The notes beneath the pieces were generated by a model. It searched no databases, had not been told where the DNA came from, and saw only the letters and a program-made list of their open reading frames with translations. A stretch of DNA of 47,352 nucleotides from a virus. This document shows, piece after piece, positions 9,155-41,900 of the stretch. Position 1 is the stretch's first letter. Every line of letters begins with the position of its first letter. Location: positions 1 through 47,352 of the IMG/VR virus record IMGVR_UViG_3300033148_006626. One strand, 5' to 3'. The translations under genes and the position numbers were made by a program.

Positions 9155-10414
9155 GTGGGAAGTGTTTTGGTAATGAGCTTAGACGGCGACGGGATACCTC
9201 TGGCTCTTAGGTTAGCCCAGGAGAAGAACATAGTCAAGGTCTGGATTAAAGATTCCCAGGCCCATGACTCTTTGAGGGGTTATAAGAATCCCTCCCTAGT
9301 GGGTCAGCCTAAGATGTTAGATCAGTATGATCTTATTCTCTTTGATATGGTTGGCCTAGGTGCTAAGGCAGATGCCCTTAAGGGGGAGGGGCGGACTGTG
9401 TTAGGGGGAGGATCCTTTAATGACAAACTCGAACTTGACCGTTCGTATGGGGAGAAAGTATGCAAGAGCCTGACAGATTTGAAAATTCCAGATGGACAGC
9501 AATGTACTTCCCAACAGGCCCTGCTGAAAGTATTAAATGGGGTGGACCAGGCAAAGGTGGTAAAGCCAAAAGGAAACAAGTCTACCACCCTAACCCTTGT
9601 AAGCAAAGATCCCCAAAACAGGACCTTGAAGTCTCTCGTCAAGGCAGGCAACGTAGACCTGTACCCGTGTGTCGTTCAAGACTACGTGGAAGGGGTTGAG
9701 GTTAGCACCGAGGGTTGGTTTAATGGGCAGGAATTCGTGGCCTTTAATCACACCTTGGAACAAAAGCGCTTGATGGAAGGTAATCTAGGACCCCAAACGG
9801 GCTGTATGGGAAACACGGTTTGGGCCTGTGGGGAGGATGAACTGGTCAAGTGTGCCTTACTACCTTTGGAACCATTACTCCGTAAGGTTGACTACCTAGG
9901 ACCTTTGGATGTTAACTGTATTTGCCAGGAGGGTAAGGCTTGGTTCCTTGAGTATACTTCTAGGTTTGGATACGATGCCATCCAGGCCTATTCGGAGTTG
10001 ATTAAAGGGAAACTTTTTGACTTCCTATGGCGCCTTTCCATACAGGAGAGCCTAATGGAAGTTTCAAATGATTATGCAATATCTGTCCGGTTAAGTATGC
10101 CACCTTATCCTCAGGAAGGAGCAGAAGGTTTGAAAGGTGTTGAGGTCATATCCCTTGAGGATGAGGCCAAGCGGCATGTTTGGTTGGCAGATGTTATGAA
10201 AGATTCAGAAGGTAAGGAGGTCCTGGCAGGTGTGGATGGTGTAGTGGGTTGTGTGTCCTCAAGGGGACAGACAATAAATGAGGCTAGACGGAGAGTTTAC
10301 CGGACTATCCAAAAGTCAGCCTTAACTCAAGATCTTCAGTATAGAAAGGACATAGGAGCGGGGGTGGAGGAGTCTATTGAGAAACTGAAAGTTTGGGGGT
10401 GGTTAGATGCCTAA
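9155..10414 (+). CDS. ATP-grasp protein related to PurD (phosphoribosylamine-glycine ligase-like)
   Basis: The 419-residue protein starts at GTG after GTAGGAGG. The ATP-grasp signature GPQTGCMG (212-219) corresponds to PurD's GPNTGGMG, and LEYTSRFGYDAIQ (265-277) to the EFNxRFGDPE metal/ATP loop; EGVEVSTEGWF (179-189) fits the central lid region. Ordinary PurD joins glycine to phosphoribosylamine in purine synthesis. Here it sits inside the morphogenesis operon, one gene before portal, and the Gly-to-Cys and Asn-to-Ser changes suggest another substrate. A ligase that modifies a virion or cell-wall component is a speculative alternative. Confidence 0.75.
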   Translation: MGSVLVMSLDGDGIPLALRLAQEKNIVKVWIKDSQAHDSLRGYKNPSLVGQPKMLDQYDLILFDMVGLGAKADALKGEGRTVLGGGSFNDKLELDRSYGEKVCKSLTDLKIPDGQQCTSQQALLKVLNGVDQAKVVKPKGNKSTTLTLVSKDPQNRTLKSLVKAGNVDLYPCVVQDYVEGVEVSTEGWFNGQEFVAFNHTLEQKRLMEGNLGPQTGCMGNTVWACGEDELVKCALLPLEPLLRKVDYLGPLDVNCICQEGKAWFLEYTSRFGYDAIQAYSELIKGKLFDFLWRLSIQESLMEVSNDYAISVRLSMPPYPQEGAEGLKGVEVISLEDEAKRHVWLADVMKDSEGKEVLAGVDGVVGCVSSRGQTINEARRRVYRTIQKSALTQDLQYRKDIGAGVEESIEKLKVWGWLDA

Positions 10415-32439: not shown

Positions 32440-34719
32440 TTACCCCTCTGAAATTTCTCTCCAGTTTTTACCTTTGTCCAGGTCTACCTTGAACCCAATG
32501 TCCATGAGTTCTGGGTATGGCTCTTCCATCACCTCCTTTACCTTAGAGCACTCCTCTTCAACCTTTTCCTTAGGAACTTGGAGGATTACAGAATCATGCA
32601 CCGAGGCGAGTATTTCATAACCCAACTTATCAAGTTTTACTATTGAGAAGAGGGTTATATCGCTAGCAGTGGATTGGATTGGGAAGTTGTAACCAGCCGT
32701 CATGCTGGAGACATACCTTATCCTACCAAAGGGAGTTCTTAGAGGTTGGTTTGACTTCACAGTCCTCTCACACAACCTTCGGTATGTTGCAATTCCTTTG
32801 TACTTGTTAATAATCCTAGTCTGCCACGTCGCAGCCTCATCCCGGGTAACACCAAACTCCAAGGCAATTGAACCTGGTGACCTTCCGTAGACCGTACCAA
32901 AGGTCATAGCCTTCGCGATAAGGTTCTGCCGAGAAGTGAAGTCCTTCTTCCTCACCCCATGGATTAGGGGAACATCAGGGTAGCAGAGTTGGCAGGAGTG
33001 GTAGTGAATGTCTTCTCCTCCCTGGAGATCCAGCAGCATGCTATCATCTCCTGATACCCTGTAAATCTCAATTGAGATCGTCCATAATTCCAACTGCTTG
33101 TAGTCTGCCTGGATTAAAACCTTTCCTGGGTCAGGGATGTAAATAACCCTCATAGGGACTGGTATGTTCTGTAGGTTGGGATTTACTGAGGATAACCTAC
33201 CTGTACCTGTCCCAGCAACCTTGAAGTGGGTGTGGATCCTCCCTTCCCTCAGCCTGTTGTAAATTCCTATTAGGTAAGTTGAGTTAGCCTTGTCAATCTT
33301 TTTGAAGGTTAGTAAGGCTTGCATTATATCTGCTTGAGGATGGCCCCTTTTGATCAGCCTTTCAAAGGTTCCCTTTTGGGCATCCTCTGTCCCGAAGAAT
33401 TCCTTTATCTGCACAGGGGATCTCGGGTTGAATCCAATTTTATAAAACTTAGATTCCAGTTGATCTATCTTAGGCCTGAGTTTAGCATGGAGCAGGGCCA
33501 AGGCCTCCTCGGAAACTTTAAACCCCCTTCTTTCTATTCTCCCTAAGGCCCGAACTAAGGGGATCAACAACCTGCACCTTAGTTCTACCTGCTGCTCATC
33601 TAGCAAACCCTCCTGAGCAAGGTCAACCGCTTTGGTGGTAACTGCATCCCAGCAAGCATAACTCAAAAGCCTTTCCTTAGTCCACTTCAGCATCTCCTTA
33701 TAATCATCCTTAGGAGGCTTGTAAGGGGGAATGTCTGTATACTGTCCCCTCATGTGGTCAAGGTTGGCAGGAAGATCAGAGTAGAGTAACTGTTGATTTA
33801 GTAAGGTATCTGAGTAGTAACCAGCATCTTTAATCCCATGCGAGCGGGCAATCTCAGTATCATACGGCCCATTCTGCCAAACTTTCAGTGCCTCAGGATC
33901 CTCAAGGAAGGCCTTGACTACAGGCCATCTAGGATCATCCCGGGGGTCCTCCGTCTGGTAGTATACAGCACATGCACTTCCCAACTCAAAGCAGAAGGAA
34001 TGGCCAATTATCTTGTCCCTAAGGACATCAAGACCCGTAGCCTCAGTGTCACAGGCATAAATAGCCCCGTGACTTAGAAACTCCGCTAAGGTTACTGGAT
34101 CAGGATCAAGGAGGAACTCTGGGTTGAGGTCAGGTGTTAGGTTCCCTTTAAAGAACTTCTCAACCAACTCATAATGACTCACTTGGGAGGGTATGTATTG
34201 CCTATTCGACCTGACAAAGGAGGGGTGCCGGCAGCATAACACCTTGCATTCCCACTCAAATTCAGGAAGCAAATCAAGGAACCTCCCAGCAACTGAAGAG
34301 ATACTCTCCTTTGTCCCTGTTAGGGTTCTTGCAGCCGAGTCCCCTAAGGCAACGATTAACTCAGGCCTCAAGGCTTGAACCTCAAGTTTAAGGCCTGGGA
34401 GGCAGCACCTTATCTCAGACAGATTTGGTGCTCTGTCCCTCCCTTGGTTATTCCTTGGGGGCCAGCAGGAGCATGTATTAGTGTGTGGATAGGCAGGCTT
34501 TTTAAGGCCAGCCTGCATACAGCATGAGTAATGTTGTTTACCTGCTGGGCCTGTGAAAGGGATGCCCGTAAAGGCCTCATCTTCTCCTGGAGCCTGACCT
34601 ACCCACAATACTTGCCTGTGAGTTACCCACCCATGTTGCTCAGGGATGTATAGGGGAACATATTGCCTATCCCTAAGGGCACATTCCTCACATAGTGAAC
34701 CTGGACGCTTTCCTTCCAT
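32440..34719 (-). CDS. Family A DNA polymerase with N-terminal uracil-DNA glycosylase and 3'-5' exonuclease
   Basis: This 759-residue fusion has a family-4-type UDG domain (about 1-190; C10/C13, GQAPGEDE 41-48, GIPFTGPAGK 52-61, RHPSFVR 164-170), a proofreading exonuclease (about 220-370; DTE 224-226, D287, D358) and a polymerase domain (about 380-759). Motif A is DYKQLELW (539-546), motif B has K603, F607-G608 and Y611-G612, and motif C is VHDS (707-710). UDG-polymerase fusions are known in phages. Odd points are Trp for the usual Arg in motif A, Asn four residues before K603, and Ser for Glu after the motif C aspartate. The main replicase of the phage. Confidence 0.92.
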   Translation of the reverse strand: MEGKRPGSLCEECALRDRQYVPLYIPEQHGWVTHRQVLWVGQAPGEDEAFTGIPFTGPAGKQHYSCCMQAGLKKPAYPHTNTCSCWPPRNNQGRDRAPNLSEIRCCLPGLKLEVQALRPELIVALGDSAARTLTGTKESISSVAGRFLDLLPEFEWECKVLCCRHPSFVRSNRQYIPSQVSHYELVEKFFKGNLTPDLNPEFLLDPDPVTLAEFLSHGAIYACDTEATGLDVLRDKIIGHSFCFELGSACAVYYQTEDPRDDPRWPVVKAFLEDPEALKVWQNGPYDTEIARSHGIKDAGYYSDTLLNQQLLYSDLPANLDHMRGQYTDIPPYKPPKDDYKEMLKWTKERLLSYACWDAVTTKAVDLAQEGLLDEQQVELRCRLLIPLVRALGRIERRGFKVSEEALALLHAKLRPKIDQLESKFYKIGFNPRSPVQIKEFFGTEDAQKGTFERLIKRGHPQADIMQALLTFKKIDKANSTYLIGIYNRLREGRIHTHFKVAGTGTGRLSSVNPNLQNIPVPMRVIYIPDPGKVLIQADYKQLELWTISIEIYRVSGDDSMLLDLQGGEDIHYHSCQLCYPDVPLIHGVRKKDFTSRQNLIAKAMTFGTVYGRSPGSIALEFGVTRDEAATWQTRIINKYKGIATYRRLCERTVKSNQPLRTPFGRIRYVSSMTAGYNFPIQSTASDITLFSIVKLDKLGYEILASVHDSVILQVPKEKVEEECSKVKEVMEEPYPELMDIGFKVDLDKGKNWREISEG

Positions 34720-35535: not shown

Positions 35536-36192
35536 TTACTCTAGGGCAGGGTCGGGTATCCCCACCTCTCTAAACCCCTTAGCCCTCAAGATGCAAGCCT
35601 GGCAGAGCCCACAAGGCTGACTTCCCCCTTTGTAGCAGGTCCAAGTATGCTTATACCAGTCCAGGTGGCCTAATCCCTCCATAAGGCGGATAATCTCTGC
35701 CTTTCTCCTCCAGATTAGAGGGGTTTCGATCTTAAAGGGGAAATCCAAGCTCTTTGAGATAGCATGTTCTATGGTAAGGATGGTCTGTTGTCTACAATCA
35801 GGATATCCAGAATAGTCAACCTGACTTACTCCAATTACAAGGTTATGAATTCCTCGGACACAGGCAAACCCCCCAGCAAGGCTAAGTAAGATCATGTTCC
35901 TTCCTGGGATCCAAGTTGCTGGATATCCCTTAGGTGCATGACTCTTCTTCTCGGATCCAGGAGTAAGGTCTGTGTATCCCCCAAAGCACTCCCTGAAGGC
36001 AGATGCTACTGTAATGGGGGTAAGCTCACACCCTGCCAGAGCACATAGGGAATTTGCTGAGTACACTTCCCTTTTATGTCTCTGCCCATAATCAAAGGTT
36101 ATTGCCTGCACTTCTTCAAACTCTTCAAGGGCCCAGGCTAGGCAAGTTGCTGAATCCTGACCTCCTGATAATAACACAACTGCCTTTTTCAT
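35536..36192 (-). CDS. queC: QueC, 7-cyano-7-deazaguanine synthase
   Basis: The 218-residue enzyme converts 7-carboxy-7-deazaguanine to preQ0 using ATP and ammonia. The PP-loop SGGQDS (9-14) binds ATP, FDYGQRH (33-39) is the QueC signature, and CYKGGSQPCGLCQAC near the C-terminus holds the four zinc cysteines. Length is normal and all key residues are present. It is the last modification gene in the leftward cluster. Start ATG follows AAAGGAGTAAAGC and overlaps the upstream stop. Confidence 0.95.
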   Translation of the reverse strand: MKKAVVLLSGGQDSATCLAWALEEFEEVQAITFDYGQRHKREVYSANSLCALAGCELTPITVASAFRECFGGYTDLTPGSEKKSHAPKGYPATWIPGRNMILLSLAGGFACVRGIHNLVIGVSQVDYSGYPDCRQQTILTIEHAISKSLDFPFKIETPLIWRRKAEIIRLMEGLGHLDWYKHTWTCYKGGSQPCGLCQACILRAKGFREVGIPDPALE

Positions 36193-36410
36193 GCTTTACT
36201 CCTTTCCTTGAGGAACCATAGGTAGGCGCAGGCTGCTATCTTGGCCAGGTCTATGGGATTGCCACCTTTATGGGAGGACGACTTAAAGCGGTGAACTTTC
36301 TCGATGATGTACTGGCCTATGTCCTCTTCCAGATAAAGTTCACCATAAGTGTGCTCACCATAGGTAAGTAGTTCATCAACTATGGCAATAAAGTCCTTAC
36401 TCATTTCCAT
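36189..36410 (-). CDS. Small helical protein between queC and dpdA
   Basis: The 73-residue protein overlaps both neighbours (ATG after AAAGGAGG). The C-terminal part (IIEKVHRFKSSSHKGGNPIDLAKIAACAYLWFL) faintly resembles MazG/DUF1599-like helical domains tied to nucleotide modification. Its fixed place between the transglycosylase and preQ0 synthase suggests a subunit or partner in the pathway. This is inference from position. Confidence 0.6.
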   Translation of the reverse strand: MEMSKDFIAIVDELLTYGEHTYGELYLEEDIGQYIIEKVHRFKSSSHKGGNPIDLAKIAACAYLWFLKERSKA

Positions 36411-37080
36411 GACATGCCTCCTTTAGCCTTTTAATGTTGTCCTTAGCCTCTTGGACTTGGGCCTGGGACATCTTGCACTTAAAGTATGCCTGGTATATAC
36501 CCTTGGAGTGGATGTGGGGGCAACCTTCTGCAACCCAATCCTTCCAAGACACTTCTAACATGGCAAGTTTAATCGGCATCCCTGTGTCTAGGTACTTTGG
36601 TTTATGCTCTTTAAACTCATCCAGGTCAGTCAGCCCAAACCAATAGGCGCATTTTTCCTTTAGCCTTTGGGACATCTCTGGACGCCAGTAGTAACTTGCG
36701 GCGAAGTTAAAGCAACCTGCCCTTTCTAGAAGATTATACTCATACTCATCCTTTACCAAGGCCAACTTGGCTGAGTGGTGAACACCTACTTGTTTGTAAG
36801 CGTCAAGGGCGGCCTCTGCTGTCCACCAATCTGTGTCAGGAGCAACCACCAGGTTGGGTTTAAATAGGTCCCACAACTCAGTCATTCGAGTTGGAGTCTG
36901 TGGAGCCTGAAGTTCATTATAGGAGTTATCCAGAACGAAGTGCAGATCCTGCTTGGTTAGGTTAAGATACTCCCTATACTCAGGCACCTTGCAGAGGAAA
37001 CTTAGACCGAATAGGAAGTCCTGCTGGAGATGAAAATCCCAGAGGTGTGGGATAGGAACCTCAAAAGCAAATTTAGTCAT
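36397..37080 (-). CDS. dpdA: DpdA-like DNA guanine transglycosylase
   Basis: The 227-residue protein resembles the small phage DpdA family, which exchanges guanine in DNA for a 7-deazaguanine. FVLDNSYNE (48-56) is in the place of the TGT-family strand bearing the substrate-binding Asp, and VVAPDTDWW (78-86) carries the next conserved acids; later blocks (LDTGMPIKLAM, HIHSKGIYQA) fit a TIM-barrel. It is overlapped on both sides (ATGA with the upstream gene), among preQ0 and preQ1 genes. Family subtype cannot be fixed by eye. Confidence 0.7.
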   Translation of the reverse strand: MTKFAFEVPIPHLWDFHLQQDFLFGLSFLCKVPEYREYLNLTKQDLHFVLDNSYNELQAPQTPTRMTELWDLFKPNLVVAPDTDWWTAEAALDAYKQVGVHHSAKLALVKDEYEYNLLERAGCFNFAASYYWRPEMSQRLKEKCAYWFGLTDLDEFKEHKPKYLDTGMPIKLAMLEVSWKDWVAEGCPHIHSKGIYQAYFKCKMSQAQVQEAKDNIKRLKEACHGNE

Positions 37081-37759
37081 TCCACACCTCCTTCACACAG
37101 AGTTCATCCTGACTTCCCTTAAGGCAGATGGGACAAGGTCCTGAAGGGGAAAGGTAACTGTCGAAGTGGGGGTAGGAGCGGTAGAGAGGAATTTCAAACT
37201 TCACATTTTCCCTATTCACCCCCCGGACAAATTCCAATGTTTCCTTGATACACCTCTTGGTTAGCCTTTTGGGTATGATGTGATTGGGTATGTCCCCCCT
37301 CGTCCATCTCTCAAAGTTGTGGGCTGACTCCCTGGGCGCTTGTTCATCGTAATAAAAGCGGAGGTCAGTAGCCGCCTTGTAGACCTTTGGGTTAACTGGG
37401 CATCCCATCTTAGGGCCTAGTGAGATCCTAGATATATACATAGGAAGAGGGAAGATCCCAGATGTATCTACCCATACTGGTGAATGTCTCTCATGGAGTT
37501 GTCTGAAGACATCTTCAAGATCCCACCCAAGAGGATCCTCACCCGTGAAGAAGACCCATTTAACATTCATACCAATACAGTTGTTCACTAAGGTGTCTTT
37601 ATCCATTGTGAGGATGTTATAGTCAAATCCCCTTTTGGGGAGAAGGTGGGCATTCCCTAGGTAAGGATTCCACCCCATCCGGACCATGCAGATAGGCGTA
37701 CCTGTATGGGGACCTAGGCCTTGAATGGTTGGGTAGATGGTTATTACGGAGTATTCCAT
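37073..37759 (-). CDS. QueE paralogue lacking the radical-SAM cysteines
   Basis: The 228-residue protein aligns with QueE along its length: YPTIQGLGPHTGTPICMVRMG (QueE: YSLQGEGKWAGTPMTFIRLAG), FTGEDP (71-76; QueE ITGGEP), WVDTSG (96-101; HLETNG), SLGPKMG (113-119; TVSPKSF). At the place of QueE's C-x3-C-x2-C it reads GWNPYLGN, so no SAM cluster can form there. Three cysteines near the end (209, 212, 221) could bind another metal. It is either a non-radical enzyme on a deazaguanine substrate or a partner of QueE or DpdA. RBS GGAGACAGG precedes the ATG. Confidence 0.75.
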   Translation of the reverse strand: MEYSVITIYPTIQGLGPHTGTPICMVRMGWNPYLGNAHLLPKRGFDYNILTMDKDTLVNNCIGMNVKWVFFTGEDPLGWDLEDVFRQLHERHSPVWVDTSGIFPLPMYISRISLGPKMGCPVNPKVYKAATDLRFYYDEQAPRESAHNFERWTRGDIPNHIIPKRLTKRCIKETLEFVRGVNRENVKFEIPLYRSYPHFDSYLSPSGPCPICLKGSQDELCVKEVWND

Positions 37760-38292
37760 ATCTTTCCTGTCTCCTTTCTTTTTAAAGCAGTTAGGACAAA
37801 GCGTGCTGCATCCTTGACAGGCATCACCTTATCCCACTTGGTTAATCGCTTTGGGTCACACATCTGTGTCCCAATGAGTCCAAACCTAAGCACGTTACAG
37901 CGGAAAGGTACCTCCTTGGCCAAGGTTAATATCGCAGCCTCTAAGCCTGCCTTACCTGCATTATAACCGAGTTGAAACTTAGGCATGTGTCTCAGATCCT
38001 TAGTGGAGATCATTAGCAAATGCCCTGTAGGCTTGATGGTAACCCTCCTTAAGAGGTTGAGATGGTGGATGAGGATTCCCTCACCAATCAGGATATGATC
38101 CAAGCAGGCATCAATAAAGGGTGATCTCAAATAGCCTGAGGCGTTCATAATCATGTAGTCCAGACTATCATCCCACCTTAGGCCTAGGTAATCATTATTC
38201 CTGAGAGACACCCTATGAATTTGGGTATCTGGAAACCTCCTTGTCAATTCTAATCCGAGGCCTGATGAGGTACCTGTTATTAAGACGCGCAT
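37744..38292 (-). CDS. Short-chain dehydrogenase/reductase in the deazaguanine cluster
   Basis: The 182-residue protein has the cofactor loop TGTSSGLG (6-13), NASG (50-53), catalytic S96, and Y110-x3-K114, so the full SDR active site is present in a short version of the fold. It starts after GGAAGGAG and overlaps both neighbours. SDRs are not part of known queuosine or preQ1 synthesis. In this setting a reduction or oxidation of the 7-substituent is the natural hypothesis; the cofactor (NADH or NADPH) is not determined. Confidence 0.82.
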   Translation of the reverse strand: MRVLITGTSSGLGLELTRRFPDTQIHRVSLRNNDYLGLRWDDSLDYMIMNASGYLRSPFIDACLDHILIGEGILIHHLNLLRRVTIKPTGHLLMISTKDLRHMPKFQLGYNAGKAGLEAAILTLAKEVPFRCNVLRFGLIGTQMCDPKRLTKWDKVMPVKDAARFVLTALKRKETGKIWNTP

Positions 38293-38666
38293 CTTTCTTC
38301 TCCTTCCAATACCTCAATAGAAATTCCTCCCCTAGTTCGGGTTATGAGGTTTACCTGGACAAAAGGTATCTTTAAGGCCAGCCTCACGTCTTTAGAAATC
38401 TGTACTGTAACAGCTTCGGCAAAACCTCCTTCCAGTCGGAATGAGTTTAGGTACATCTTAAGACTCTTGGACTCAAGGCAGAGGTCCTCAGGGGAATAGG
38501 TTATTCTTAACTCCCCATAATCAGGTTGGCCCGTAACTGGGCAGAGCCAAGTAAACTCCAGACAGTGGAGAGTTACCAGGTCTACCCCTGGGTTTGGGAA
38601 AGTGTCTAAGACAAAGGCACTAGGCTTCTTAAAGGTAAATTTGTCCTTCTCCTTCAGATGCTTCAC
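38280..38666 (-). CDS. queF: QueF-type preQ0 reductase
   Basis: The 128-residue protein starts at GTG after GGGAGGTAAGAA. FTWLCPVTGQPDYG gives the catalytic Cys42 and Asp49, and ESKSLKMY (65-72) is the QueF NADPH motif. The usual FHE reads F82-A83-E84, so a substrate-binding histidine is missing while the glutamate remains. QueF reduces preQ0 to preQ1 with NADPH. With DpdA and QueC it suggests preQ1-type DNA. A QueF-like amidinotransferase is less likely because the NADPH motif is intact. Confidence 0.85.
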   Translation of the reverse strand: MKHLKEKDKFTFKKPSAFVLDTFPNPGVDLVTLHCLEFTWLCPVTGQPDYGELRITYSPEDLCLESKSLKMYLNSFRLEGGFAEAVTVQISKDVRLALKIPFVQVNLITRTRGGISIEVLEGEERCAS

Positions 38667-38717: not shown

Positions 38718-39356
38718 TCACTTCCTCCACCATGGGCAATGCTCAAAGATCCAGTTAAGATGTAATCTCTTGTCAATGATGGGAGGAATCAGGATCATGT
38801 GCAGGAATTGAACACGTCGCACATGGAATCCCTCAAGGGGCAACTCCTCCAGCGTGTAAGCCTTGTGCTCAAAATTCTTTTCCACAACCGGCTTGCCGAG
38901 CAGTCGCAGAAGCTTCTTATCCCACTCTCGGAAGCGTTCGTAGCCGTTGCGTACGGCGATTATTGCACGCCCACCAGGGGCAAGAACACGGTGAATCCCC
39001 TTAAAGTGGAGCACGGGGTTCGGTAGGTATTCAAGGACGGCTATAGATAGCACGAGGCCAAAAGACCCATTGGGAAAGGAAAATCTCTCCGCATGGCCGG
39101 TCCTAAACCAATGCCTGGGATGCAACTCAAGCGCCTTCTTGACCATTTCCTGGCTGATATCAATTCCGATATAGATATTGGGGGTGAACAGTGACGCATA
39201 TAGGCTAGGACCACAACCTATATCAAGAACGCAACTCTGCTGCCCCTCCACCATCTTCGCTACAGCCTCAAATCGCCTCTGGTATCCGGGATGCTCAAGG
39301 CTACTGGCCCAATGACCTACTTGGCTGTCGAAATGTTGAAGAATCGCCTGATCCAT
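38718..39356 (-). CDS. Class I SAM-dependent methyltransferase
   Basis: The 212-residue reading starts at ATG after AAGGGGTACAAGG. VLDIGCGPS is motif I of a Rossmann methyltransferase, IGIDIS binds the SAM ribose, LSIAVLEYLPNP corresponds to motif IV, and VLAPGGRAIIAV to the post-motif strand. No DNA-methylase PPY signature is seen, so a small-molecule or glycan substrate is likelier. It overlaps the PIG-L deacetylase, a pairing also known as fused proteins in bacteria. CpG-richer composition sets the pair apart from the surrounding genes. Confidence 0.82.
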   Translation of the reverse strand: MDQAILQHFDSQVGHWASSLEHPGYQRRFEAVAKMVEGQQSCVLDIGCGPSLYASLFTPNIYIGIDISQEMVKKALELHPRHWFRTGHAERFSFPNGSFGLVLSIAVLEYLPNPVLHFKGIHRVLAPGGRAIIAVRNGYERFREWDKKLLRLLGKPVVEKNFEHKAYTLEELPLEGFHVRRVQFLHMILIPPIIDKRLHLNWIFEHCPWWRK

Positions 39357-40058
39357 TCCTTGTACCCCTTGATTGGAAGAGTGAAGAAAAGTTCCACATG
39401 CCGAGGCTTTAGGGCCTTCCCTCTCGGTAGCCACCTGGAATTGTAGGCACTCAGACCCATACTCCAATGAACATAATCCCTATGATCCATCTGAGACCTG
39501 AACATCACCATAGCCTGCATTTTTTGGGAAAGGACATCGGTGATATCCACATACCCATTTCCCGGCAACATGCTGTAAACCTGATACGCCCACACGGTCA
39601 TACGATCCGGGAAGTCCATCAGGAGGAGATTGGAATTTCTGTGGTCTGCATGGCCATCGGTCAGGAACGGCACAAAGACCCTCTGGAATCTTGCCAGGTT
39701 AGGCATCGCGGTCGTGGTTCCATACCCCACAACCTCCGCTACCGCCTGGGCCTCCCGATACGGCGCCTGGAGCTTACCTTGCGTGTGCTGGTAATATACC
39801 GTAACCTTGGCCCCTGCCTCAATCGCCTTGATGAGCGTACCTCCACACCCAAGGATCCCATCATCAGGATGCGGAGCGATTACCAGGACGCTTCCAGTTG
39901 GGAGGGGGGAGAGGAACTGGCTCCAGAACTTCATGTAATACTGGGGTATCAAAAAATGCCTGCATAGCTGTGGGGCCAAGGTCTATCCATTTCCTCACAG
40001 CAAATTTGTAGGCCAACTGGCCAAGAAGGTACTTGCGAATTCTTCTCTTCCAGTTCAT
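39317..40058 (-). CDS. PIG-L/LmbE-family deacetylase, split by an apparent +1 frameshift
   Basis: A 64-residue frame (40058-39864, ATG overlapping the zinc-ribbon stop) provides an N-terminus ending EPVPLPPP. A second frame provides LPTGSVLVIAPHPDD, the GILGCGG that follows, and HADHRNSN. Removing one base from the six-C run (plus-strand G run 39904-39909) joins them as EPVPLPLPTGSVLVIAPHPDD, about 246 residues, a normal PIG-L length. The zinc motif is PHPDDG (E to G) and HxDH. PIG-L enzymes remove N-acetyl groups from sugars or sugar conjugates. Sequencing error, a recent mutation or programmed slippage would all explain this. Confidence 0.72.
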
Positions 40059-40303
40059 TTCTTTTGCTTTTTCCTTTTCCTAGTTAAGGCTTCAGGAGGG
40101 ATTACAGCCTTGCAATTAAGACAGAACAGATGGCCTTGTACTCCTTCAACCACATCTCTTCCAGTTGGGTTCAAGAGGGCAGAATGCTCATAGAAGGTGT
40201 GGCAAGGTATGAAGGCACACCCCTGGCATTTGGGGCAGACCAAGGGAATTCGATTTTTAGGGGCAAGTTTGAGAGGTTGACCCTCTGGCATACGCCCGTT
40301 CAT
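40055..40303 (-). CDS. Small zinc-ribbon protein
   Basis: The 82-residue protein has CPKCQGC (23-29) and FCLNCK (about 59-64), two knuckles about 35 residues apart, then a basic tail RKRKKQKK. It starts at ATG after AAAGGAG and lies between queE and the deacetylase. Small zinc ribbons in phage replication/modification operons often bind nucleic acid; no specific role known. Confidence 0.7.
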   Translation of the reverse strand: MNGRMPEGQPLKLAPKNRIPLVCPKCQGCAFIPCHTFYEHSALLNPTGRDVVEGVQGHLFCLNCKAVIPPEALTRKRKKQKK

Positions 40304-40315
40304 AATTTCTCCTTT

Positions 40316-40942
40316 CTATCTTATCTCGATGTACTTCTGGGTCTGTAGACACAAACGGAACCTATGTGGCATCTCCTTACAGAAGTCTATCGCCCTCCTA
40401 AGGTTCATTAGGTATGCTGCGTTCTTGGCATTATCCAGAGTACCCTCCCCATACCAAACAGGCATTAGGAGATATTGGGCATGGTCTAGTCCATGGTATA
40501 GGGATAAGACATTGATTATCAAGTCCTTCCAATTAGGAGTACCAACTAGGAATTTGATCTCACTTGCCATCATCATGGTCCCTCTACAAAGATTGAAAGA
40601 CTTAGGACTAACAGTTATCCAGCTAAACCTCTCAGAATTTGGGATGGGATTGCTCCCATTAGTCTCCAGATGGATTTGAAATCCTCTGTTAAAGAGATCC
40701 TGGGTTAGATAGTCCAGGTCTTGGATGGTTGGTTCCCCACCTGTTATACAGACAGTTCTTGCTGGAAACTTCTCAACCTGCTCTACCATGGCGTGCTCCT
40801 CTGCGGTCCACTTACGAGAGTAGTCTGTATCACAGAAAGGACACTTTAGGTTACATCCTGCAAGGCGGATGAAAGTCATGGGTGTTCCTGCCCATTTGCC
40901 TTCACCTTGTAGGGAATAAAAGATTTCATTAACCTCAAGCAT
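40316..40942 (-). CDS. queE: QueE, 7-carboxy-7-deazaguanine synthase (radical SAM)
   Basis: The 208-residue enzyme rearranges 6-carboxy-tetrahydropterin into 7-carboxy-7-deazaguanine. C30, C34 and C37 in AGCNLKCPFCDTDYS bind the 4Fe-4S cluster; ITGGEP (66-71) and LETNG bind SAM and substrate. The start is the ATG preceded by AAGGAGGTTCTT; an upstream in-frame start has no ribosome site. Length agrees with the compact QueE group. It is the intact partner of the cysteine-less paralogue at 37073. Confidence 0.95.
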   Translation of the reverse strand: MLEVNEIFYSLQGEGKWAGTPMTFIRLAGCNLKCPFCDTDYSRKWTAEEHAMVEQVEKFPARTVCITGGEPTIQDLDYLTQDLFNRGFQIHLETNGSNPIPNSERFSWITVSPKSFNLCRGTMMMASEIKFLVGTPNWKDLIINVLSLYHGLDHAQYLLMPVWYGEGTLDNAKNAAYLMNLRRAIDFCKEMPHRFRLCLQTQKYIEIR

Positions 40943-41022
40943 AAGAACCTCCTTAAAGGTGCCCTCGGCCCACCCAGCCAAAAGGAGCGGAAAAGTCCAG
41001 GCAGGCCTTAGGCACGCAAAGG

Positions 41023-41538
41023 TTAAAGTGAAAGAAACTCCGCTCGGGCAGATGCCTCCTCGAGAAAAGCACCTGAGAAGCAGTCAGTTACGGTAGTTAC
41101 GCAGGGTGAGCGTACACCTCGGATGCGGGTGCACATATGCTCCCCTGTGATGAGGACGGCGGTTCCTATAGGTTTAAGGTTGTATTCTATGTCCTGAGTT
41201 ATAGCAGGGGCAATGTCCTCCTGGATAAGAAGTTGGGTGGCAAAGTAGTCTGCCAGGCGGGCCAACTTACTCAGACCCACCACTCTGTCTTCAGGTAGAT
41301 AAGCAATCTTAAACTCATACCTGACAGGTAGGAGGTGGTGAGGACAGAATCCCCAACAGATATGGTCCTTCAGGAGAAGGATACCACCACGCCCAATATG
41401 GGGGAAGACAACCCAGTCAGGATACGGAGCAAGGTGGTCCTTCCACATCTTAGCGACCCTCATGGGGGTATCAATGAAGTTGGGGTCATTCAAGTCAACT
41501 TCCAACCCTGATAGAATTCTTCTTACTCCTTCTTCCAT
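41023..41538 (-). CDS. folE: FolE, GTP cyclohydrolase I
   Basis: The 171-residue enzyme makes 7,8-dihydroneopterin triphosphate from GTP, the first step to preQ0. CPHHLLP provides C65, H67 and H68, and HMCTRIRGVRSP provides C136 of the zinc site; GLSKLARL and the following helix fit the family. It is about 50 residues shorter than E. coli FolE, missing the N-terminal extension. It overlaps queD by about 16 bases, so the two are coupled. Confidence 0.93.
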   Translation of the reverse strand: MEEGVRRILSGLEVDLNDPNFIDTPMRVAKMWKDHLAPYPDWVVFPHIGRGGILLLKDHICWGFCPHHLLPVRYEFKIAYLPEDRVVGLSKLARLADYFATQLLIQEDIAPAITQDIEYNLKPIGTAVLITGEHMCTRIRGVRSPCVTTVTDCFSGAFLEEASARAEFLSL

Positions 41539-41900
41539 GTTTTCTTACACCCCCTTTTTAAGGTTACCCTCCCACCCTGCCCTTCAGTAACTGAAACTGA
41601 ATAGACCTGGTTAGGAAGTAGTCGGTTGTACTCATTCCAAAGACGGGTGCAGATGTGCTCTGCTGTTGGATTGGGCAAGATGGTGTTCAAGTCTTCATGG
41701 TCAAGTCTTTCCAGTTGGGAGTTGAGGACACTCTTAGCCAGGCGGAAATCTACAGCCATTCCAGTTCTGGGGTTCATCTCATGTTCGAGTACAAGGGTTA
41801 CACCCCAGGTGTGTCCATGATGTTTAGAGCAATGTCCTTGGTAGTTAGGGAGGTGATGGGCAGCATCGAACGTGCCCCTTACTTCAATGAGATATTTCAA
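41523..41900 (-). CDS. queD: QueD, 6-carboxy-tetrahydropterin synthase
   Basis: The 125-residue protein has FDAAHHL (zinc His15), C24-x3-H28-G-H30, LDHEDLN (66-72), PTAEH (78-82) and TEG (105-107), the complete QueD set for making 6-carboxy-tetrahydropterin. It starts at TTG within TTGA, after AAGGAAGGAGATAAG, overlapping the stop of the small membrane gene. First of the preQ0 genes in the order of transcription. Confidence 0.93.
   Translation of the reverse strand: MKYLIEVRGTFDAAHHLPNYQGHCSKHHGHTWGVTLVLEHEMNPRTGMAVDFRLAKSVLNSQLERLDHEDLNTILPNPTAEHICTRLWNEYNRLLPNQVYSVSVTEGQGGRVTLKRGCKKTWKKE

Follow-up and report, generated by a model that had tools for sequence, protein, structure and literature searches.

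A QueE homologue lacking the radical-SAM cofactor site in a phage 7-deazaguanine gene block

The 7-deazaguanine gene block

The stretch of DNA analysed here (the window) was a single IMG/VR virus record of 47,352 bases. Its 7-deazaguanine operon had the gene order QueD, FolE, QueE, a zinc-ribbon ORF, a small ORF, a PIG-L deacetylase, a methyltransferase, QueF, SDR, a second QueE-like gene (pseudo-QueE), DpdA, a 73-aa ORF and QueC. The main features were as follows.

35536 to 36192, minus strand: QueC; family profile matches
36189 to 36410, minus strand: 73-aa ORF between DpdA and QueC; no family
36397 to 37080, minus strand: DpdA, a divergent DpdA3-like DNA guanine transglycosylase of 227 aa; LDNS and LDTxxP kept; 8 nt shared with pseudo-QueE
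37073 to 37759, minus strand: pseudo-QueE, 228 aa; predicted QueE fold without the cluster, Mg and SAM residues; Q13, R27 and K117 kept; C209-x2-C212-x8-C221 tail
37076 to 37147, minus strand: pseudo-QueE tail with CPIC-x8-C, not present in any of 34 aligned QueEs
37532 to 37546, minus strand: TGEDP at the place of the SAM-binding TGGEP
37646 to 37678, minus strand: loop MGWNPYLGNAH at the place of C-x3-C-x2-C-D-T (Fe-S and Mg ligands); low model confidence
37744 to 38292, minus strand: short SDR with the motifs TGTSSGLG, NASG, S and YNAGK; 16 nt shared with pseudo-QueE
38280 to 38666, minus strand: QueF (preQ1 synthase) with LCPVTGQPD and ESKSLKMYLNSFR
40316 to 40981, minus strand: intact QueE, 221 aa, C-x3-C-x2-C; profile matches and motifs
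41023 to 41538, minus strand: FolE (GTP cyclohydrolase I); family profile match
41523 to 41900, minus strand: QueD (PTPS family); family profile match

The six consecutive genes QueF, SDR, pseudo-QueE, DpdA, the 73-aa ORF and QueC overlapped at their ends by 4-16 nt, and each had an AGGAG-like site. As the preliminary description of this DNA had stated, pseudo-QueE lay between the SDR and DpdA genes and overlapped both, and it was probably translated together with its neighbours. The intact queE gene was located about 2.5 kb upstream, and the coupling of pseudo-QueE was with SDR and DpdA. QueF makes preQ1. Since the window encoded QueC and an apparently intact QueF, the predicted free base was preQ1, and the phage looked equipped for guanine modification in its own DNA. 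Searches with Rfam and PADLOC gave no match.

Several other genes were observed in the window. The PIG-L-type deacetylase and the SAM methyltransferase (38718-39979, minus strand) were located inside the operon, and their substrate may be the modified base or a sugar; their true start codons were probably further in, because the listed ORFs overlapped by more than 100 nt. A small zinc-ribbon-like ORF (40055-40303, minus strand) came right after the intact QueE, and a PurD-like (GARS) ATP-grasp protein was encoded amid the phage structural genes (9155-10414, plus strand).

Reading frame and motifs of pseudo-QueE

The pseudo-QueE frame started with the ATG at 37759 and ended at 37073, and the plus strand across the same positions was closed by stops throughout. 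Codon usage did not discriminate between the reading frames. We also considered a CQGC...CPNC string in frame upstream of the ATG. It was rejected since it had no usual start codon and fell inside the SDR gene in another frame.

The QueE motif order proposed earlier was present in full in the sequence (IQGLG, TGTP, TGEDP, DTSG, SLGPK). The corresponding motifs of the intact QueE were QGEG, CNLKCPFCDT, TGGEP, ETNG and SPK, so that the phage did possess a second, intact QueE with C-x3-C-x2-C, as had been noted.

Loss of the cofactor site

In the E. coli enzyme, Q13, E15 and R27 bind the substrate, C31, C35 and C38 bind the cluster, T40 binds Mg, and G94, S136 and Q189 have been assigned to SAM (PMC11142719). 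In our alignment, 7/7 of these cofactor residues (three Cys, the Mg-Thr and three SAM residues) were replaced in pseudo-QueE. Namely, the three [4Fe-4S] Cys columns contained W, a gap and L, and N36, E74, G115 and I162 stood at T40, G94, S136 and Q189. The alignment thus agreed with the original observation that GWNPYLGN had taken the place of C-x3-C-x2-C, and comparison with 34 aligned phage QueEs showed that the cluster site was wholly lost. The old SAM loop had acquired two new acidic residues (E74 and D75). At the substrate positions, Gln13 and Arg27 were kept and Glu15 was changed to Leu. R27 of QueE forms a salt bridge to the substrate carboxylate (PMC5347944).

Formation of Q-tRNA was abolished in the E. 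coli R27A and C38A mutants, while the single mutants C31A, C35A and E15A were still active (PMC11142719). The loss of one ligand would therefore prove little. The loss of all of them argued against radical chemistry, and pseudo-QueE, judged by its residues, probably no longer performs it.

The losses were also uneven. Among the 29 columns with at least 85% conservation in the 34 phage QueEs, pseudo-QueE kept 0/8 cofactor columns and 14/21 others (Fisher p 0.002, with the column classes assigned by hand). Beyond the motif order and the two substrate residues, it shared the TG, T-x-G and PK elements with QueE.

An additional difference, beyond those listed in the preliminary description, was found at the C-terminus, where a longer tail containing C209, C212 and C221 stood in place of the QTHK strand of QueE. 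This tail could bind zinc or a cluster and give the protein a new active or structural site, and the three cysteines were not found in the 34 aligned QueEs. However, only three Cys were present, the tail had low model confidence (pLDDT about 48), and there were no relatives in which its conservation could be seen. Thus, we considered a new metalloprotein improbable.

Descent from QueE and predicted fold

Pseudo-QueE scored 53.8 bits against a QueE HMM that was built without it, while the best of 2,000 shuffled sequences reached 6.7, which upheld the earlier assignment to QueE. It also matched the PHROG QueE family (phrog_2076, phage QueE-like radical SAM proteins; E 7.5e-5, a significant but partial match over the N-terminal 26 residues), two NCBIfam QueE models (about 4e-4, with TIGR04508 at 3.5e-4), the QueE of Hafnia phage yong3 (2e-5) and the intact QueE of the window itself (1.2e-4). 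There was no match to the Pfam Radical_SAM family, and a PDB sequence search with pseudo-QueE alone gave none either. On these sequence comparisons, pseudo-QueE is a QueE by descent.

The AlphaFold model, obtained with the 34 phage QueEs as the alignment, had a pLDDT of 83 and a pTM of 0.80. As suggested before, it contained a QueE-type partial barrel. Its best matches among the solved structures were the QueEs of B. multivorans (4njg, the top match, Z 18.4), E. coli (6nhl) and B. subtilis (5th5), with Z 17.5-18.4 over 183-194 residues, compared with 12.6 for pyruvate formate-lyase activase. Folding of the single sequence was useless (pLDDT 37). Since the QueE alignment steered the model, the fold evidence was not independent of homology; the predicted QueE fold was well supported, yet dependent on it.

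In the tree, the branch of pseudo-QueE was extremely long, and the protein could not be placed because this branch was saturated. Its identity to the QueE of the window was 19-28%. Both observations bear on the possibility that pseudo-QueE regulates the intact QueE or serves as its pseudo-subunit, in heterodimers that would stabilise, activate or limit CDG synthesis. QueE is a homodimer, pseudo-QueE was predicted to have the same fold, and in other families pseudoenzymes are known to partner with active paralogues. However, the low identity and the long branch spoke against such pairing, as did the coupling of the gene to SDR and DpdA rather than to the distant queE. Moreover, hundreds of phages had one QueE and no such partner. 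This role was therefore unlikely.

The neighbouring DpdA

The earlier DpdA call was borne out in the form of a short, divergent DpdA3-like protein. A profile of six DpdA3-like members (immuto, CP220, Youna2, BSTP12, MA9V-3 and Ahp1) recognised it with E 6.5e-6 and its motifs were aligned, and in the comparison with IMG/VR loci of this group it matched one of them (L195) at 1e-7. The group of immuto, CP220 and L195 transglycosylases is presumably the published DpdA3 subfamily. DpdA1 profiles did not recognise the protein; DpdA3 profiles did. No Pfam or PHROG family was matched. With 227 aa compared with 256-290 in the aligned members, the protein was about 30-60 residues shorter.

Relatives in the DpdA3-like group often adjoined DNA polymerase A. 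In the window, the DNA polymerase A (32440-34719, minus strand) had a uracil-DNA-glycosylase-like domain at its N-terminus. The polymerase beside DpdA in another IMG/VR locus (L128, 7730-11308) had an apparently similar N-terminus and may carry an intein. In a further IMG/VR phage (L017, 5863-7615), a QueE and a DpdA3-like ORF overlapped directly.

Search for relatives and second copies

A tblastn search of 50,697 phage records with pseudo-QueE gave ten weak matches, with one place per record, and those inspected were canonical QueEs. Scans of IMG/VR that used the protein, a QueE-guided alignment or the degenerate DNA patterns TG[DE][DE]P...DT.G and IQGLG...GTP detected canonical QueEs or chance matches and no cluster-less relative. 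In a pattern scan of about 85,000 prokaryote genomes from GTDB, there was no QueE-like match. Remote relatives may be missed because these scans rested on short motifs.

We also looked for phages with a second QueE-like place. None was present among 305 phage records with a match to the intact QueE, 126 with a match to the phiST QueE, 43 examined by profile search and 14 that represented reference 7-deazaguanine loci. CP220 and Ahp1 gave additional matches, but these were limited to the surroundings of the radical-SAM core and looked like other radical-SAM proteins. Similarly, no second or cluster-less QueE was present in 80 DpdA3 loci, 48 of which had a QueE-like gene. Eleven of the DpdA3 loci had been flagged as motif-less; these proved to have a long insertion ahead of the final Cys or to be truncated. 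The full-length phage QueEs examined all kept the three cluster Cys, either as C-x3-C-x2-C or as insertion variants, in contrast to pseudo-QueE. No precedent for a pseudo-radical-SAM protein turned up in the literature searched. Thus, pseudo-QueE is an orphan within the phage genomes, IMG/VR loci and GTDB genomes searched, and confidence in its interpretation was limited because it was a single sequence without relatives.

Such isolation, together with the very long branch, might be expected of a functionless vestige in decay. However, the gene had an open frame of 228 codons, its own ribosome-binding site and a place in a compact block, and its losses fell mainly on the cofactor site, with fold residues retained. 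We therefore regarded decay as very improbable.

Comparison with known systems

The fetched loci of DpdA3-like systems (immuto, Campylobacter CP220 and IMG/VR L195) had either an ordinary QueE or no QueE within reach, and never a cluster-less copy. Within the stretches displayed (L110, 15426-16346, and L004), Flavobacterium phage immuto had FolE, QueD, QueE, DpdA and a QueF-like protein, and phiST had FolE, QueD, QueE and DpdA3; neither had an annotated QueC.

The preliminary description had proposed comparison with DpdL, which is reportedly a predicted CDG decarboxylase of phage 7-deazaguanine DNA modification. The proposed role of DpdL belongs to the same pathway as the gene block of pseudo-QueE. 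The complete genomes of phiST, phi47:1, immuto and HVTV-2 had one QueE-like gene each and no second. With a single QueE in each, a QueE-derived DpdL was not visible in these phages. The immuto protein gp202, which kept the QueF motifs in a phage stretch with no annotated QueC, may be a candidate for DpdL.

These results bear on the possibility that pseudo-QueE is an enzyme that acts on a 7-deazaguanine without radical chemistry, such as a DpdL-like CDG decarboxylase or an SDR-paired enzyme that alters the 7-substituent. The barrel and the carboxylate-binding Arg27 were retained, the former SAM loop had its new acidic residues, and the adjoining SDR had intact motifs. However, there was no recognisable new catalytic motif, and the four complete genomes offered no second QueE-like protein as a parallel. 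Additionally, a CDG decarboxylase would compete with the route to preQ1 predicted from QueC and QueF. An independent enzyme was thus a possibility that we held to be doubtful.

A possible role beside DpdA

The suggestion that pseudo-QueE was free to take another role was supported, since an intact QueE was encoded elsewhere and the cluster site was wholly lost. Because all known cluster and SAM residues were lost while the fold and the key Arg were kept, pseudo-QueE probably acquired a new use within its pathway, either as a helper or as an enzyme that works without radicals. Over an independent enzyme, a QueE pseudo-subunit, a metal protein and a vestige, we favoured, though tentatively and at somewhat less than even odds, a role in the 7-deazaguanine pathway as a partner protein that binds a ligand without radical chemistry and possibly serves the short DpdA.

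Such a partner would work without radicals or SAM. In pseudo-QueE, the remaining QueE pocket, with Gln13, Arg27 and the new Leu at position 15, would hold a 7-deazaguanine intermediate. Its synthesis would be coordinated with that of the SDR and the short DpdA3-like transglycosylase, both of which the protein might serve by handing over substrate, by forming a complex or by gating.

QueE homology and fold, with the contrast between cofactor and other columns, were consistent with this ligand-binding role. However, there was no relative that could reveal which residues are under selection. Two of the three substrate residues were kept, but R27 and Q13 may persist for folding alone, and the loss of the Glu15 contact argued against an unchanged ligand. 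The gene overlaps from QueF to QueC, each gene with its AGGAG-like site, fitted a partner, although coupled translation would fit a lone enzyme too. Finally, a DpdA shorter than its DpdA3 relatives was compatible with a partner subunit, but its length may be mere divergence. A more specific version, a two-component DNA guanine transglycosylase in which the short DpdA3-like protein is the catalytic subunit and the cluster-less QueE the one that binds and delivers the base, seemed to us rather unlikely.

QueE is a model radical-SAM enzyme, and a natural copy that has lost the cofactor site yet stays in its own pathway would show repurposing of the scaffold. Moreover, pseudo-QueE could point to a step, so far overlooked, by which the 7-deazaguanines protecting phage DNA are made or inserted.
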